Source of the DNA: Pseudofrankia coriaricola
GTDB taxonomy: Bacteria; Actinomycetota; Actinomycetes; Frankiales; Frankiaceae
Length of the DNA stretch: 64,000 bases
Direction: 5' to 3'
Assembly: GCF_001854805.1 (NCBI RefSeq)
Contig: NZ_MBLO01000220.1
Span: forward strand, 43,699-107,698
Part shown: piece after piece, positions 32,756-39,151 of the stretch
How positions within the stretch are numbered: position 1 is the first letter of the stretch
How the letters are laid out: every line of letters begins with the position of its first letter
Notes under the pieces: generated by a model
What the model was told of the DNA's origin: nothing
What the model saw: the letters and a program-made list of their open reading frames with translations, nothing else
Database searches by the model: none
Translations under genes and position numbers: made by a program

Positions 32756-33793
32756 ATGGCGATCGACCTCTCCGGTGGCCTGCCCATCGATCGGGAGTAC
32801 TTCTTTCCCTCCCGGCCGGACAACCCCGACATGCGGGACTCGGCCAGCTTCTGGGTCACCGACGACAAGGGCGAGATCGGCCTGCCCCGGTTCGGGATCG
32901 AGGCCGTCGCGGCCAACTGGGACACGCACCTCGTCACGTTCAACGTGGTGTTCGCCGACGGCCGGGTGTATCGGCTGCGCGGCGCCGGCCCGGCGCACTC
33001 ACCGTTCAACGCGGCCGGCCAGCCGGCGATCCTCGGCGCGGGCGGGCTCGCGTTCGAGGTCCTCGAGCCCTACCGGACGTGGCGGATGACCTACGACGGC
33101 CCGGCCGTCGAGACGACCTCCCAGGCACTCGTCGAGGGCAGGCAGGACGGCCCGACGGTGAACCTGCGCGTCGAGGTCGAGACGACGATGGCCGCGCCGC
33201 CGTGGGAGCAGGGAGCGCTGCTGCCCGACGCGGCCGAGCGCCTCGCGAACACCTCCGACGGCGACATGATGGGCCACGGGCCGCGCATCGAGCAGTTGTT
33301 CGCCGCGACCGGTGTCGTCCGGGTACCGGGCGAGGAGAAGACCTTTACCGGCAGCGGCCTGCGCATCAAGCGACAGGGCGTCCGTCATCTGGAGGGGTTC
33401 CGCGGCCACACCTGGCAGTCCGCGGTGTTCCCCAGCGGCAAGGCCTTCGGCTACATCACCTACCCACCGCGTCCGGACGGCCGCGAGGTGTTCAACGAGG
33501 GCTACCTGTTCCTGGGTGAGGAGAAGCTCATTCCGGCCCGCGTTGTCGAGGCCCCCTGGCTGCGCCGGCTGGTACCGTCGGGCGATCCCGTCCCCGTCGT
33601 GTTCGAGTCCGAACTCGGCATCACCCGTATCGAAGGCGTGACCGTGAACACCACCCACGACACGGTCCATCGGCCGGAACTGCCCAACTTCCCGGTGCTG
33701 TTCCAGGGCGAGTGCAGGTATACGTGGGACGGAGAGGAGACCTACGGCATGCTCGAGCGGTCTACCGTACGCGACCAGATCGAGTGGTCATGA
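32756..33793 (+). CDS. Lipocalin/CrtC-like beta-barrel protein, unknown function
   Basis: The ATG at 32756 has AGGAAGGAC upstream and gives 345 aa. The sequence is rich in alternating beta strands and aromatic turns ([51 protein letters not shown]). This resembles the duplicated lipocalin-like fold of hydroxyneurosporene-synthase (CrtC)-related and DUF7064-type proteins. Its stop overlaps the cysD ATG. It may bind or modify the lipid that the upstream enzyme sulfates. That link is inference from context. Confidence 0.7.
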
Positions 33794-34737
33794 GCGCGCC
33801 GACCGGCGGCGGTGCCCGGGACCTGCTCCCAGGCACCACCCGCCTCAGCCACCTGCAGCGTCTGGAGGCGGAAAGCATCCAGATCTTCCGGGAGGCCGTC
33901 TCGGAGAGCGAGCGGCCGGTGATGCTGTACTCGGCGGGCAAGGACAGCTCGGTGATGCTGCACCTGGCGATGAAGGCGTTCTACCCGTCGAAACCGCCGT
34001 TCCCGCTGCTGCACGTCGACACGACGTGGAAGTTCAACGCCATGTACGCCTTCCGGGACGGACTGGTCGCGGACCTGGGTCTGGATCTGCTGGTCCACCA
34101 GAACCCCGACGCGCTCGCGCAGGGCATCAACCCGTTCGACCACGGCTCGGCGGTGCATACCGATGTGTGGAAGACCGAGGGGTTGAAGCAGGCGCTGGAC
34201 AAGTACGGCTTCGACCTGGCGTTCGGTGGGGCGCGCCGCGACGAGGAGAAGTCCCGGGCGAAGGAACGGGTCTTCTCGATCCGCTCCACGGCGCATCGCT
34301 GGGACCCCAAGCAGCAGCGCCCCGAGCTGTGGCGGCTCTACAACGCCCGCAAGGCGCCGGGGCAGAGCGTGCGGGTGTTCCCGCTGTCGAACTGGACCGA
34401 GCTGGATATCTGGCTTTACATCCATCACGAGAACATCCCGATCGTCCCGCTGTACTACGCCGCGCCGCGACCGGTCGTCGAGCGCGACGGCGCACTGATC
34501 ATGGTGGATGACGAGCGGATGCGGCTGGCACCGGGCGAGGTGCCCGAGCAGCGCGAGGTCCGGTTCCGCACGCTCGGCTGCTACCCGCTGACCGGGGCGG
34601 TGGAGAGCTCGGCGACGACGCTGCCCGAGATCATCCAGGAGATGCTGCTCACGACCAGCTCGGAACGCCAGGGCCGGGTCATCGACCACGACTCGTCCGG
34701 GTCGATGGAGAAGAAGAAGCAGGAGGGGTACTTCTGA
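33790..34737 (+). CDS. cysD: Sulfate adenylyltransferase subunit 2
   Basis: The 315-aa protein contains the PP-loop variant [11 protein letters not shown] (Ser48-Ser53) and the conserved blocks [35 protein letters not shown] and [13 protein letters not shown]. With CysN it forms the heterodimer that makes adenosine phosphosulfate from ATP and sulfate, driven by GTP hydrolysis. It overlaps the upstream gene by four bases and is followed after 130 bases by a cysN-cysC fusion. No cysH or other reduction gene is nearby, supporting a role in PAPS supply rather than assimilation. Confidence 0.96.
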
Positions 34738-34747
34738 CCCCGCCAAA

Positions 34748-34843
34748 GGGCATGCGAAAATGCTTTTCCTTCGCATGCCCGGAGGCATTTCAACAGGGAG
34801 CCCGGCCGAAGAGCGTGCGAAAATGCTTTTCCTTCGCACGCTC
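34748..34843 (+). ncRNA. Two tandem covarying RNA hairpins between cysD and cysNC
   Basis: Hairpin 1 has arms GGGCATGCGAA (34748-34758) and TTCGCATGCCC (34770-34780). Hairpin 2 has arms GAGCGTGCGAA (34811-34821) and TTCGCACGCTC (34833-34843). The 11-base loop AATGCTTTTCC is identical. The stems differ at two base pairs, and both differences are compensated on the other arm. The repeat period is 63 bases. Each hairpin is followed by CGGAGG. The loop ATGs (34760, 34823) are in frame with cysNC. A structured leader controlling cysNC, or a dispersed repeat element, are both possible. Confidence 0.6.
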
Positions 34844-34867
34844 GGAGGCCTTCCAGCAGGAGGCAGC

Positions 34868-36790
34868 ATGGCGCACGCGGCGGGCGACCTCGTCGCCACC
34901 GACATCGACGAGTACCTACGCCAGCACGAGAACAAGTCGATGCTGCGGTTCATCACCTGCGGCAGCGTGGATGACGGCAAGAGCACGCTGATCGGCCGGC
35001 TGCTGTACGACGCGAAACTGGTGTTCTCCGACCACCTCGCCGCGCTGGAGTCCGACTCGAAGAAGGTCGGCACGCAGGGCGGTGAGCTCGACTTCGCGCT
35101 GCTCGTCGACGGCCTGGCGGCCGAGCGCGAGCAGGGCATCACGATCGACGTCGCCTACCGGTTCTTCTCCACCGAGCACCGTAAGTTCATCGTCGCCGAC
35201 ACCCCGGGCCACGAGCAGTACACCCGCAACATGGTCACCGGCGCCTCCACCGCCGACCTCGCGGTGATTTTGATCGACGCCCGCAAGGGCGTGCTCACCC
35301 AGACCCGCCGCCACAGCTACCTGGTCTCCCTGCTCGGCATCCGCCACGTCGTGCTCGCCGTGAACAAGCTCGACCTCGTCGACTACTCGAAGGACGTCTT
35401 CGACGCCATCGAGGCCGACTACCGCGCGTTCGCGGAGCAGATCGGGCTGACCGACATCGTCTGCATACCGCTGTCGGCGCTGCGCGGCGACAACATCACC
35501 GAGCCGAGTCCGAACATCTCGTGGTACACCGGCCCGACCCTGGTCGGGCACCTGGAGACCGTGCAGGTCACCGACGACCTGGACACCGGCCCGTTCCGCC
35601 TGCCGGTCCAGTGGGTCAACCGGCCCGACCTGGACTTCCGCGGCTTCTCCGGCCAGGTCACCGGCGGCACGGTCCGCCCCGGCGACCGGGTCCGCATCGT
35701 CCCGTCGGGCACCGAGAGCACCGTCGAGCGGATCGTCACCGCCGACGGCGACCTGCCCGAGGCCATCGCCGGCCAGTCCGTCACGATCACCCTCGCCGAC
35801 GAGGTGGACGTCTCCCGTGGCGACGTGCTCGCCGCCGCGGGCGACCCGCCGGCCGTCGCCGACCAGTTCGAGTGCCACCTCGTCTGGATGAGCGACGAGC
35901 CGATGCTGCCCGGCCGGCCCTACCTGCTCAAACTCGGCACCCGCACCGTCGGCGCGACCGTCGCCCAGCCGAAGTACAAGGTCAACGTCAACACCCTCGA
36001 ACACACCGCCGCCCGCACCCTCGAACTCAACGAGATCGGCGTCGCCAATCTCAACCTGGACCGGCGGATCGCGTTCGACCCCTACACGGTGAACCGCGAC
36101 ATGGGCGGGTTCATCCTCATCGACCGGTTCACCAACGCCACCGTCGCCGCCGGCCTGTTGCACTTCGCCCTACGCCGGTCCGACAACATCCACTGGCAGG
36201 CCGTCGAGGTCAACAAGGCAGCGCGGGCCGCGGCCAAGGGCCAGCGCCCGGCGGTCGTCTGGTTCACCGGCCTGTCCGGCGCCGGCAAGTCCACCATCGC
36301 CAACCTCGTCGAGAAGAAACTCCACGACCAGGGCCACCACACTTATCTCCTCGACGGCGACAACGTCCGCCACGGCCTGAACAAGGACCTCGGCTTCACC
36401 GAAGCCGACCGGGTGGAGAACATCCGCCGCATCGGCGAGGTCGCCAGACTGATGGTCGACGCCGGCCTCATCGTCCTGACGTCGTTCATCTCCCCGTTCC
36501 GCGCCGAACGGCAGCTCGCCCGCGACCTGCTCGCCGACGGCGAGTTCATCGAGGTCTTCGTCGACACCCCCCTCGACGTCGCCGAAACCCGCGACCGCAA
36601 GGGCCTCTACGCCAAGGCCCGCCGCGGCGAGCTCACCAACTTCACCGGCATCGACTCCCCCTACGAACCCCCCATCCACCCCGAGCTCCACCTCGATGCC
36701 TCCGGCGCGGTCTCCGCCGAGACCAGTGCCAACCAGGTCGTCGCCTATCTCCATGAGGCCGGCCTCCTCACTCCACCGCCGGCGGAGTAG
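34868..36790 (+). CDS. cysNC: Bifunctional sulfate adenylyltransferase subunit 1/APS kinase
   Basis: The ATG at 34868 with CAGGAGGC upstream gives 640 aa. The N-terminal GTPase has GSVDDGKST (32-40), [10 protein letters not shown] and AVNKLDLVD. The C-terminal APS kinase begins near residue 460 with [11 protein letters not shown] and continues through [17 protein letters not shown]. The fusion makes PAPS directly from APS. In-frame ATGs at 34760 and 34823 within the upstream hairpin loops would add repeat-encoded residues, but they lack the family sequence. A strong terminator follows at 36838. Confidence 0.96.
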
Positions 36791-37474: not shown

Positions 37475-38986
37475 TCAGTCGGATGGAAGCCGGTTGATGG
37501 GGTGGTCGCTGGTCGCCCAGAGGTACTGGACCGCGTAGGCGCGCCACGGCCGCCAGGGCGCCGCGCGCTTCGTCAGCGCCGCGGGCGTCGACGGCAGGCC
37601 GAGATCGGCCGCCGCGCGCCGCACGCCGAGATCCGTGGCGACGAACGCGTCGGGATCGCCGAGCGCGCGCATGGCGACCAGGTCGACCGTCCAGGGCCCG
37701 ACGCCCGGCACCGCCGCGAGCTGGGCCCTGGCCCGCTCCCAGTCGCCGCCGACGTCCAGCTCCAGGTCCCCCGTCGCGAGGGCGGTGACCAGCGCGCGCA
37801 CGCTCGCCCGCCGGGACCGGGGCATCGCCAGCGTCTCCGGATCCAGCTCGGCCAGCGCCGACGTGGTCGGGAACAGGTGGGTCAGCCCGCCGTCGGCGTC
37901 CCGGGCGGGCTCGCCGTGCGCGGTCACCAGCCGCGCGGCGAGCGTTCGCGCGGCGGCCGTCGACACCTGCTGGCCAAGCACCGCGCGGATCGCGAGCTCC
38001 GCCGGGTCGGTGGTACGCGGGACCCGCCGGCCTGGGTTCTTCGCGACCAGCGGAGCCAGTACCTCGTCGGCGCCGAGCTGGGCGTCGATCGCGACCGGGT
38101 CCGCGTCCAGGTCCAGCAGCCACCGGCACCGGTTGATCGCGGTCGTCAGGTCGCGCAGGTCGGACAGGGCCAGCCGGCACTCGATGTGCTCCGGCGCCGG
38201 GCGCAGCGCCGCGACGGCGTGTCCGTGTGGGAGCCGCAGCGTCCGGCGGTACGCACCGTCGCGCCATTCCTCGATCCCCGGCACCGCCGTGGCCGCGAGG
38301 TGGCCGAACAGGTTGTCCGGGCACAGCGGCCGCCGGAACGGGAGCCGCACGACGATGGTGCCGGCCGTTCTGGTTCCGGCCGTTCTGGTGCCGGCTGTTC
38401 TGGTGCCCGGTGCTCCTGGCTCGTCGACGGCCTTCGCCCGCGTCCGCAGCTCGCTCGGCGAGACCGCGAAGACCTCCTGGACCGTCTCGTTGAAGGCGCG
38501 CACGCTGGCGAAGCCCGCCGCGTACGCCAGGTCGGCCATCGGCAGTTTCGTGGTCTCGATCAGCAGGCGCGCGGTCTGCGCGCGCTGCGCGCGGGCCAGG
38601 GCGAGCGGCCCCGCGCCCAGCTCGGCCATCAGCTGCCGTTCGAGCTGGCGAACGCTGTAACCGAGCCGGGCGGCGAGCCCCGGCACACCCTCGCGGTCGA
38701 CCAGCCCGTCCGCGATCAGCCGCATCGCGCGGGCGACGAGGTCGGCGCGCTCGTTCCACTGCGGCGAGCCCGGCACGGCGCCCGGCCGGCAGCGCTTGCA
38801 GGCCCGGAAGCCCGCCTGCTGCGCCGCCGCGGCGCTCGGGAAGAACCGCATGTTCTCGGGCTTCGGCGGCGTCGCCGGGCAGCTGGGGCGGCAGTAGATC
38901 CCGGTGGTGAGCACGGCGGTGAAGAACCAGCCGTCGAAGCGCTCGTCCCGCGCCTGAACAGCTCGCACACACCGCTCAACGTCCAT
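37475..38986 (-). CDS. Ada-type sensor fused to AlkA 3-methyladenine glycosylase
   Basis: Start at the internal ATG at 38986 (503 aa). The N-terminal Ada zinc domain has Cys32, Cys36, Cys63 and Cys66; Cys32 (GIYCRPSC) matches the methylphosphotriester acceptor of Ada. An AraC-type HTH occupies about 75-180. A tandem TRTAG repeat (15-bp units, 38357-38401) forms the linker. The C-terminal glycosylase has the HhH motif VPGVGPWTVDLVAMRALGD. Such fusions sense methyl damage and repair alkylated bases. It probably activates its own operon with ogt. Confidence 0.92.
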   Translation of the reverse strand: MDVERCVRAVQARDERFDGWFFTAVLTTGIYCRPSCPATPPKPENMRFFPSAAAAQQAGFRACKRCRPGAVPGSPQWNERADLVARAMRLIADGLVDREGVPGLAARLGYSVRQLERQLMAELGAGPLALARAQRAQTARLLIETTKLPMADLAYAAGFASVRAFNETVQEVFAVSPSELRTRAKAVDEPGAPGTRTAGTRTAGTRTAGTIVVRLPFRRPLCPDNLFGHLAATAVPGIEEWRDGAYRRTLRLPHGHAVAALRPAPEHIECRLALSDLRDLTTAINRCRWLLDLDADPVAIDAQLGADEVLAPLVAKNPGRRVPRTTDPAELAIRAVLGQQVSTAAARTLAARLVTAHGEPARDADGGLTHLFPTTSALAELDPETLAMPRSRRASVRALVTALATGDLELDVGGDWERARAQLAAVPGVGPWTVDLVAMRALGDPDAFVATDLGVRRAAADLGLPSTPAALTKRAAPWRPWRAYAVQYLWATSDHPINRLPSD

Positions 38987-39151
38987 GTCCACCCGTCCAG
39001 CGTGCCCGCCGCCCGGCGCCAGGTCTCGCGGAAATACGACATGGCGGTGCGGCCACACGGTCCCGGGCGGCAGGCCACCCAACCGGGCTCTGCGCACGTA
39101 CGCGCACAGAGCGGCTGATGTGCACGGACGCGCACATCGACAGGCGAAGGG

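Follow-up and report, generated by a model that had tools for sequence, protein, structure and literature searches.

The hairpin pair between cysD and cysNC

The window, by which we mean the whole stretch of 64,000 nt analysed, carries two hairpins in the spacer between cysD and cysNC (Table 1). The start of cysD is uncertain (33790 as listed, 33784 by codon-usage call). Direct reading confirmed the description in the earlier note of two 63-bp units (34738–34863), each with a perfect 11-bp stem and the identical loop AATGCTTTTCC. The paired arms are GGGCATGCGAA with TTCGCATGCCC in unit 1 and GAGCGTGCGAA with TTCGCACGCTC in unit 2. The units start 63 nt apart and are 85% identical over 60 nt. 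Allowing up to three mismatches, TGCGAAAATGCTTTTCCTTCGCA occurs twice in the window, against 0.00 expected from shuffles. The folding z-score of 34730–34880 is −2.87, and none of 200 shuffles was as good. Folding further predicts an outer helix of the GGCC/GGCC type, which encloses the hairpins beyond an AAA/GG[CA] internal loop and is weaker in unit 1. No sigma-70-type promoter or intrinsic terminator was found at 34600–35000, and an Rfam search of the hairpins returned two matches, both far under the gathering score. Judged from sequence, AGGAGG at 34858–34863, within the 3′ tail of unit 2, is the likely ribosome site of cysNC. Elsewhere in the window (37475–39097, minus strand) lies what we take to be an AlkA/Ada-like reading frame, whose translation holds the short peptide repeat TAGTRTAGTRTAGT.

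Table 1. Coordinates of genes and repeat units around the hairpin pair (window numbering)
Feature	Position	Strand	Details and basis
cysD, sulfate adenylyltransferase small subunit	33790..34737	+	NCBIfam NF009214 CysD, 544.8 bits; gene call; stop TGA 34735-34737
Repeat unit 1	34738..34800	+	Stem 34748-34758 / 34770-34780, loop 34759-34769; model R1 match 34739-34791, 67.2 bits
Repeat unit 2	34801..34863	+	Stem 34811-34821 / 34833-34843, loop 34822-34832; model R1 match 34802-34854, 69.1 bits
cysNC, bifunctional sulfate adenylyltransferase subunit 1 / adenylylsulfate kinase	34868..36790	+	NCBIfam NF004035, 1080.5 bits; start from gene call and comparison with 19 other junctions

A dispersed family with covarying stems

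The earlier note had offered two readings of the pair, a translational control element for PAPS synthesis and a dispersed palindromic repeat, and had proposed a genome-wide search and a covariation analysis. The second reading is supported. Eight genomes of the genus were searched (G000 to G007, G000 being that of the window). The pattern GAAAATGCTTTTCCTTC with up to three mismatches gave 95 + 99 widely scattered matches in G000, compared with 1 + 1 for the reversed pattern. The covariance model R1 found at least 150 copies in G000 at E 0.01, 116 in G004, 80 in G001 and 31 in G003; the low-copy genomes G002, G005, G006 and G007 hold 4, 6, 3 and 1. At E 0.001 matches occur in 17 of 35 genomes from the order, and related hairpins are numerous in genera g7 and g4. 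A class-wide search under stricter filters matched 10 of 296 genomes at E 1e-5, all from the window's family. Relatives from G022, G030, G033 and G010 mostly read GGCCAAAGG...CCGG[CA]GGCC with other loops, often GCGATCATG. The two-unit query had no match in plasmids or phages, nor the exact core pattern in viral contigs, in collections that may omit near relatives of the window's genome.

We aligned 45 distinct copies (loci L001–L060) over the inner and outer helices. Pairing is found in 96.4% of cells and falls to 29–49% when the partner is slid by 1–3 columns. Two-sided changes occur in 6 of 15 pairs (mean in shuffles 4.2, with 9 of 500 reaching this number), and 57 cells carry them compared with 17.5 in shuffles; the stems thus covary. 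The five innermost pairs are invariant because the pattern by which the copies were chosen fixed the inner GC pairs and favoured the loop, and the covariation rests on the other pairs. The consensus unit of about 69 bp consists of CTAGAG, GGCC-AAA-stem (11 bp)-loop (11 nt)-stem-GG[CA]-GGCC and a tail to GGATCA. It starts with CTAGAGGGCC, ends in GGATCA and lies 5′ of CTRANGG. We note a longer variant (L207:6699, L217:2425, L154:1123, L316:2456 and L317:2515) with a second hairpin, of the type CCTGCCGGATCGC-GAA-GCGATCTGG.AGG, between the main stem and the GGATCA tail; beside L316:4962 this extra arm recurs several times.

The stems can also be followed after insertion. Sixteen same-site comparisons between species (18 less L029/L218 and L198/L118, where the site occupied did not appear to be the same; L041 is counted in three) gave 6 compensated changes, 8 on one side only with pairing retained and 6 that are unpaired in at least one species. 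One occupied site has A-T in G001, G-T in G000 and G-C in G003 and G004. At orthologous occupied sites the identity of core relative to flank was higher in some comparisons and lower in others, with no consistent extra conservation of the core. The hairpin structure appears to be mostly kept, through selection or gene conversion, with no strong constraint demonstrated. One copy is found at the same site in three low-copy species (L097, L098 and L111 in G002, G006 and G005, with 47–48 of 48 core bases identical), and some copies must therefore be old.

The two base-pair differences between the stems of the window are indeed compensated (G-C/A-T and A-T/G-C), as the earlier note had stated. It had also seen in them an argument for selection on structure. 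Compensated differences occur throughout the family, however, and alone are no proof of selection at this locus. The loop of the cys units recurs exactly at only one other place in G000 among the matches listed. Sharing this rare loop, the two units probably arose by tandem duplication, their stems diverging afterwards through compensated changes, and this divergence may be read as the best hint here of selection on structure. The GGAGG reported to follow each hairpin is likewise present, as CGGAGG after each stem; it is part of the conserved 3′ side of the hairpin, CCGG[CA]GGCC.

Placement, edges and the landing motif

Genomic placement was examined in stretches chosen around copies in G000 and G004, which are not a random sample. 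They hold 149 R1 matches including the two of the window, or 148 after one overlapping duplicate was dropped. These form 112 arrays, 85 single and 27 with 2–4 units, spaced 63–72 bp apart and most often 69. Genes around the arrays were called with our own codon-usage script, not a published gene finder, and for a gene that reads into an element the script may take the element's TAG as the stop. Only 9 of the 112 arrays lie within called genes, though 80% of the sampled loci is coding. Both neighbours are on the strand of the element in 35 arrays and on the opposite strand in 28; a further 21 come after a same-strand gene and themselves face an opposing gene, 12 are flanked by divergent genes and 7 adjoin the end of a contig or stretch. 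Orientation to transcription thus follows no rule. The handful of neighbours identified by family search include purA, nuoK, nuoL, nuoN and a polyprenyl diphosphate synthase. Copies lie directly 3′ of nuoN and of nuoK (before nuoL) in G000, and in G004 an orthologous array follows the same nuoK-like gene (L197:3437 and 8840; L228:4739–4856). Two copies sit in frame within protein genes and add a short peptide, one in a UDP-glucose 4-epimerase-like (galE-like) gene of G005 (L035:1500–1552), the other in a WcaI-like glycosyltransferase gene of G000 (L184:3487–3539).

In the 112 arrays whose edges were read, CTAGAG-GGCC predominates on the left. On the right GGATCA predominates; CTR comes next, then usually A or G, any base and GG. 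The CTR of this tally is partly built in by anchoring, though it can also be seen in the raw list at a fixed distance. The hairpin core begins exactly 2 nt past a same-strand stop in 28 arrays, and in 16 the stop of an opposing gene lies exactly 16 nt past the core, so that 44 of 112 have an edge exactly at a stop codon. By way of background, of 146,904 intergenic points in the sampled loci 272 adjoin same-strand stops and 235 opposing stops. Recognition of stop codons as such was considered as the cause and is weakened by a count of the CTRANGG sites that stand empty in these loci, according to which stops need not be recognised. These sites already coincide with stops (33 forward and 10 reverse, beside 127 other intergenic and 330 coding), and the motif together with the loss of gene-breaking insertions explains most of the stop placement.

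An empty site was located at purA. The hairpins 3′ of purA are present in G000 and absent from the seven other genomes of the genus, and in G001 both flanks can be aligned. The empty G001 site (95% identical over the query) reads ...CTCCTCTAACGGATCATCGGCGCC, and the filled G000 site reads ...CTCCTCTAACGG-GCCAAAGG...two units...GGATCA-CTGACGGATCACCAGCGCC. The edges in G000 are CTAACGG on the left and CTGACGG on the right, the empty site has CTAACGG, and no clear inverted repeat was seen by eye. The other six genomes are too divergent past the purA stop (TGA in G004, TAG in the rest) to be aligned by eye. This pair supports a recent insertion exactly at the purA stop; among clean empty/filled pairs with a near-consensus element it is the only one. 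The left CTAACGG, in place of CTAGAG, could come either from the element or from a target duplication of up to 7 bp.

Taken together, these data suggest how the element may spread. It stands immediately 5′ of CTR(A)NGG. The C-TRA of this motif contains a stop, and CTA read backwards is TAG, so a landing can leave the neighbouring gene intact. The left CTAG of the element would supply a new stop and the old one would move to the right edge. Tandem arrays would arise by repeated insertion or duplication at one boundary.

cysD–cysN junctions across the genus

The earlier note had looked to conservation upstream of cysN. We compared 20 cysD–cysN junctions from the eight genomes (species) and found a hairpin at only 3, the remaining 17 including the closest relatives. 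The filled junctions are that of the window (two units), a second G000 operon (G000:C6, L069; one unit) and G005 (L067; one unit with another loop). Of the hairpin-free junctions 11 overlap as TGATG, 2 as TAGTG, 3 have a TGATGG variant 17 bp longer and 1 (L078) a longer unrelated spacer. CTGATGG, which fits the landing motif, is present in 14 of these 17. A tree of 19 junctions (the partial locus L086 is among the 20 junctions and outside the tree; a partial cysNC match, G006:C261, was left out) requires three changes, all forced by well-supported branches, and the closest relatives of every filled operon lack the hairpin. The changes may be three gains, or fewer gains plus losses; we infer gain, not loss, of hairpins at cys. 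Both filled G000 operons have GGCCGAAGAGC in common, making one insertion followed by gene conversion between them possible.

Several further features of these junctions were noted. In L062, L064 and L086 the junction is 17 bp longer than the overlap, and in L064 and L086 TGATGGC stands at both ends of the extra stretch, which is possibly the footprint of a past insertion. The spacer of L078 (G004:C1:3074323) is different and long, with a potential stem of its own (GGTCGGCG...CGCCGACC) and AAAGGAGG ahead of the start; by eye it lies outside the R1 family. G002 has three near-identical cysD–cysNC operons at distant places (L068, L072 and L079; end branches 0.0006–0.004). A scan of a contig collection with CysD kept 80 loci (best 85% protein identity), none of them, going by title, of the window's genus; these loci were left out of the comparison.

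CTGATGG, in which the stop of cysD and the start of cysNC overlap, would be a natural landing site. The edges of the cys element have drifted from consensus (TGACC on the left, no GGATCA on the right), and we infer that the cys hairpins arose by the same insertion rule as the consensus copies. Insertion would have parted the overlapping stop and start, presumably with loss of translational coupling, and would have left a ribosome-site-like stretch directly ahead of cysNC. The end of cysD in the window reads GGAGGGG, and many overlapping junctions have GGAGGGG or GAGGGG ending 8 nt before the cysNC start. All three filled junctions have a new purine-rich stretch ahead of the ATG (AGGAGGCAGCATG, GGGAGGACAAATG and AAGGGATTTGACATG), and these stretches may have been selected as ribosome sites. 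The hairpins may affect the translation of cysNC.

In our view it is very unlikely that the hairpins act in cis, on translation or by attenuation, to tune cysNC and so the supply of PAPS, with the loop ATG or GGAGG as the working part. The hairpins do stand at the same place in three cysD–cysN operons, both stems of the window are intact, and each hairpin is followed by a ribosome-site-like stretch before cysNC. It is also correct that the loop ATGs of the window (34760 and 34823) share the reading frame of cysNC, which starts at 34868. This frame is not kept elsewhere, however: the ATG is out of frame in L069 and replaced by CTG in L067, and we rejected a start-codon role for it. The same hairpin is moreover scattered through the genome, no Rfam family comes near threshold, and 17 of the 20 junctions do without it. 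The PAPS control element proposed in the earlier note is thus not supported, and the refuting conditions that the note itself had named, wide scatter and lack of conservation upstream of cysN, speak against it.

A milder proposal is that a mobile insertion has since been put to use, uncoupling cysNC from cysD translation or protecting the end of the cysD mRNA and so altering the CysD:CysNC ratio. This is compatible with a mobile repeat and may be entertained, although we think it somewhat unlikely. The insertion parts a stop/start overlap that most relatives keep, a purine-rich stretch precedes the ATG in 3 of 3 filled junctions, and the units of the window differ by two compensated pairs despite their rare common loop, as if the stems had been kept after tandem duplication. 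Orthologous sites in general, on the other hand, show as many unpairing as compensated changes (6 each, beside 8 one-sided), and their cores are not consistently better conserved than the flanks.

We consider it very probable that the cys hairpins belong, as tandem copies, to a short mobile repeat that is palindromic and peculiar to one actinobacterial family. This is based on observed dispersal, covarying stems, placement at motif and stop, the empty site at purA and the absence of hairpins from most cysD–cysN junctions. The repeat is probably non-coding, and the cys hairpins are probably not a sulfur-specific switch.

Known repeat systems and the search for a mobilizer

The element resembles REP and MIRU repeats in behaviour, yet it departs from each in defining features. 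In the part of the literature available, most REPs are intergenic and near 3′ ends, their super-families carry a GTAG or CGTC tag at one end of the palindrome, and CGTC repeats occur without an associated transposase (PMC3733652; neither "frankia" nor "actinobacteri" occurs in the accessible text). Like REPs, the element is palindromic, dispersed and near 3′ gene ends, with 103 of 112 arrays outside called genes. Unlike them, it has no GTAG or CGTC tag at its edges (112 arrays read), its hairpin is longer with an internal loop, and a stop codon lies exactly at many of its boundaries. Descent from classical REP elements, with a REP-associated tyrosine transposase (RAYT, of the Y1 type) as mover, would account for these likenesses and for the compensated stem variation. 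G030, G031 and G032 of genus g7, with 129, 12 and 43 related-hairpin matches at their listed thresholds, and also G007, have one Y1 gene (PF01797) each. No Y1 gene was found in G000–G006, that is in 7 of the 8 genus genomes, nor in G022, G033 or G034; among these G004 is a two-contig assembly with 116 copies. Together with the missing tag this makes a REP/RAYT origin highly improbable.

Target preferences are known for some IS families: TA or CTAG for IS630-like elements and a CT core for IS110-like elements. A miniature transposable element moved in trans by such a family would be consistent with the tandem arrays, with the CTAG or CTRA seen on either edge and with the CT of each junction. 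By eye, however, there is no clear terminal inverted repeat, and since the right edge carries CTG as often as CTA, a TA is not needed. IS110 was tried as carrier and rejected: G000 has five matches, and their loci are without any of three end/core motifs. We regard movement by a known IS family as rather unlikely. The 79 exact CCCCAGGATCACT (right end) sites of G000 were compared by eye with the hairpin matches listed, and five sites outside these were fetched. All five proved to be altered or long-variant copies or tails, not a larger element sharing the right end. Around L316, the right-end site where genes were called, no transposase was noticed. The Y1, IS110 and right-end searches thus gave no candidate for the mobilizing enzyme.

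Small MITE-like elements are given as 100–200 bp in the accessible part of one account (PMC2229807). Like RUP, Correia/NEMIS, ERIC and RPE, the present element is a small non-autonomous repeat with some copies in frame within protein genes (L035 and L184). It differs from MITE-like elements and RPE in its length of about 69 bp, the lack of clear terminal inverted repeats and the small share of arrays (9 of 112) in called genes. The element is not mentioned in the accessible portions of a Frankia insertion-sequence paper (PMC2770080; text without "palindrom" or "MITE") or of a Frankia transcriptome paper (PMC3188489; text without "hairpin"). No earlier report of such a Frankia repeat family was found by title, most subscription journals being outside coverage.

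MIRUs, as far as the available part of the source goes, appear mobile, insert at start codons and contain an ORF coupled to the downstream gene at −4 nt (PMC12548453). The present element is likewise made of short tandem units and at cysD–cysNC is inserted at a stop/start junction of co-oriented genes. Unlike a MIRU, it occurs in both orientations genome-wide and has no conserved coupled ORF at cysNC, where only the window copy has its loop ATG in frame. Its boundary genome-wide is related to stop codons or the motif, not to starts.

A more ambitious reading can be put forward. The element would be a site-specific mobile hairpin that does without a tyrosine transposase, integrates at C^TRA stops by means of an undescribed enzyme and acts as a portable re-initiation module, as a MIRU does at start codons. 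The host gene would gain a new stop, and the displaced old stop would end a mini-cistron of 15 codons, with AAAGG as ribosome-site-like stretch and the ATG in the loop (for example MIFLRTPGGRCPQDH). The frame of the loop ATG ends exactly at the junction stop in 44 of 84 readable arrays; since 27 of these 44 encode the same peptide they are not independent. A conserved peptide was not borne out by the arrays read, and relatives in other genera have loops of other lengths. We judge this reading improbable.

Conclusions

The hairpin is very probably a mobile repeat restricted to one family, with the cys pair among its landings. It illustrates clearly how a gene-dense genome can be filled by a mobile repeat that spares the genes: the landing motif coincides with stops, and the element supplies a stop of its own. 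It raises the problem of how a covarying hairpin is moved in genomes in which no Y1 enzyme, the usual mover, was found. It is also a warning that hairpins which stand in tandem between two genes and show compensated changes can be mobile repeats and not regulators.
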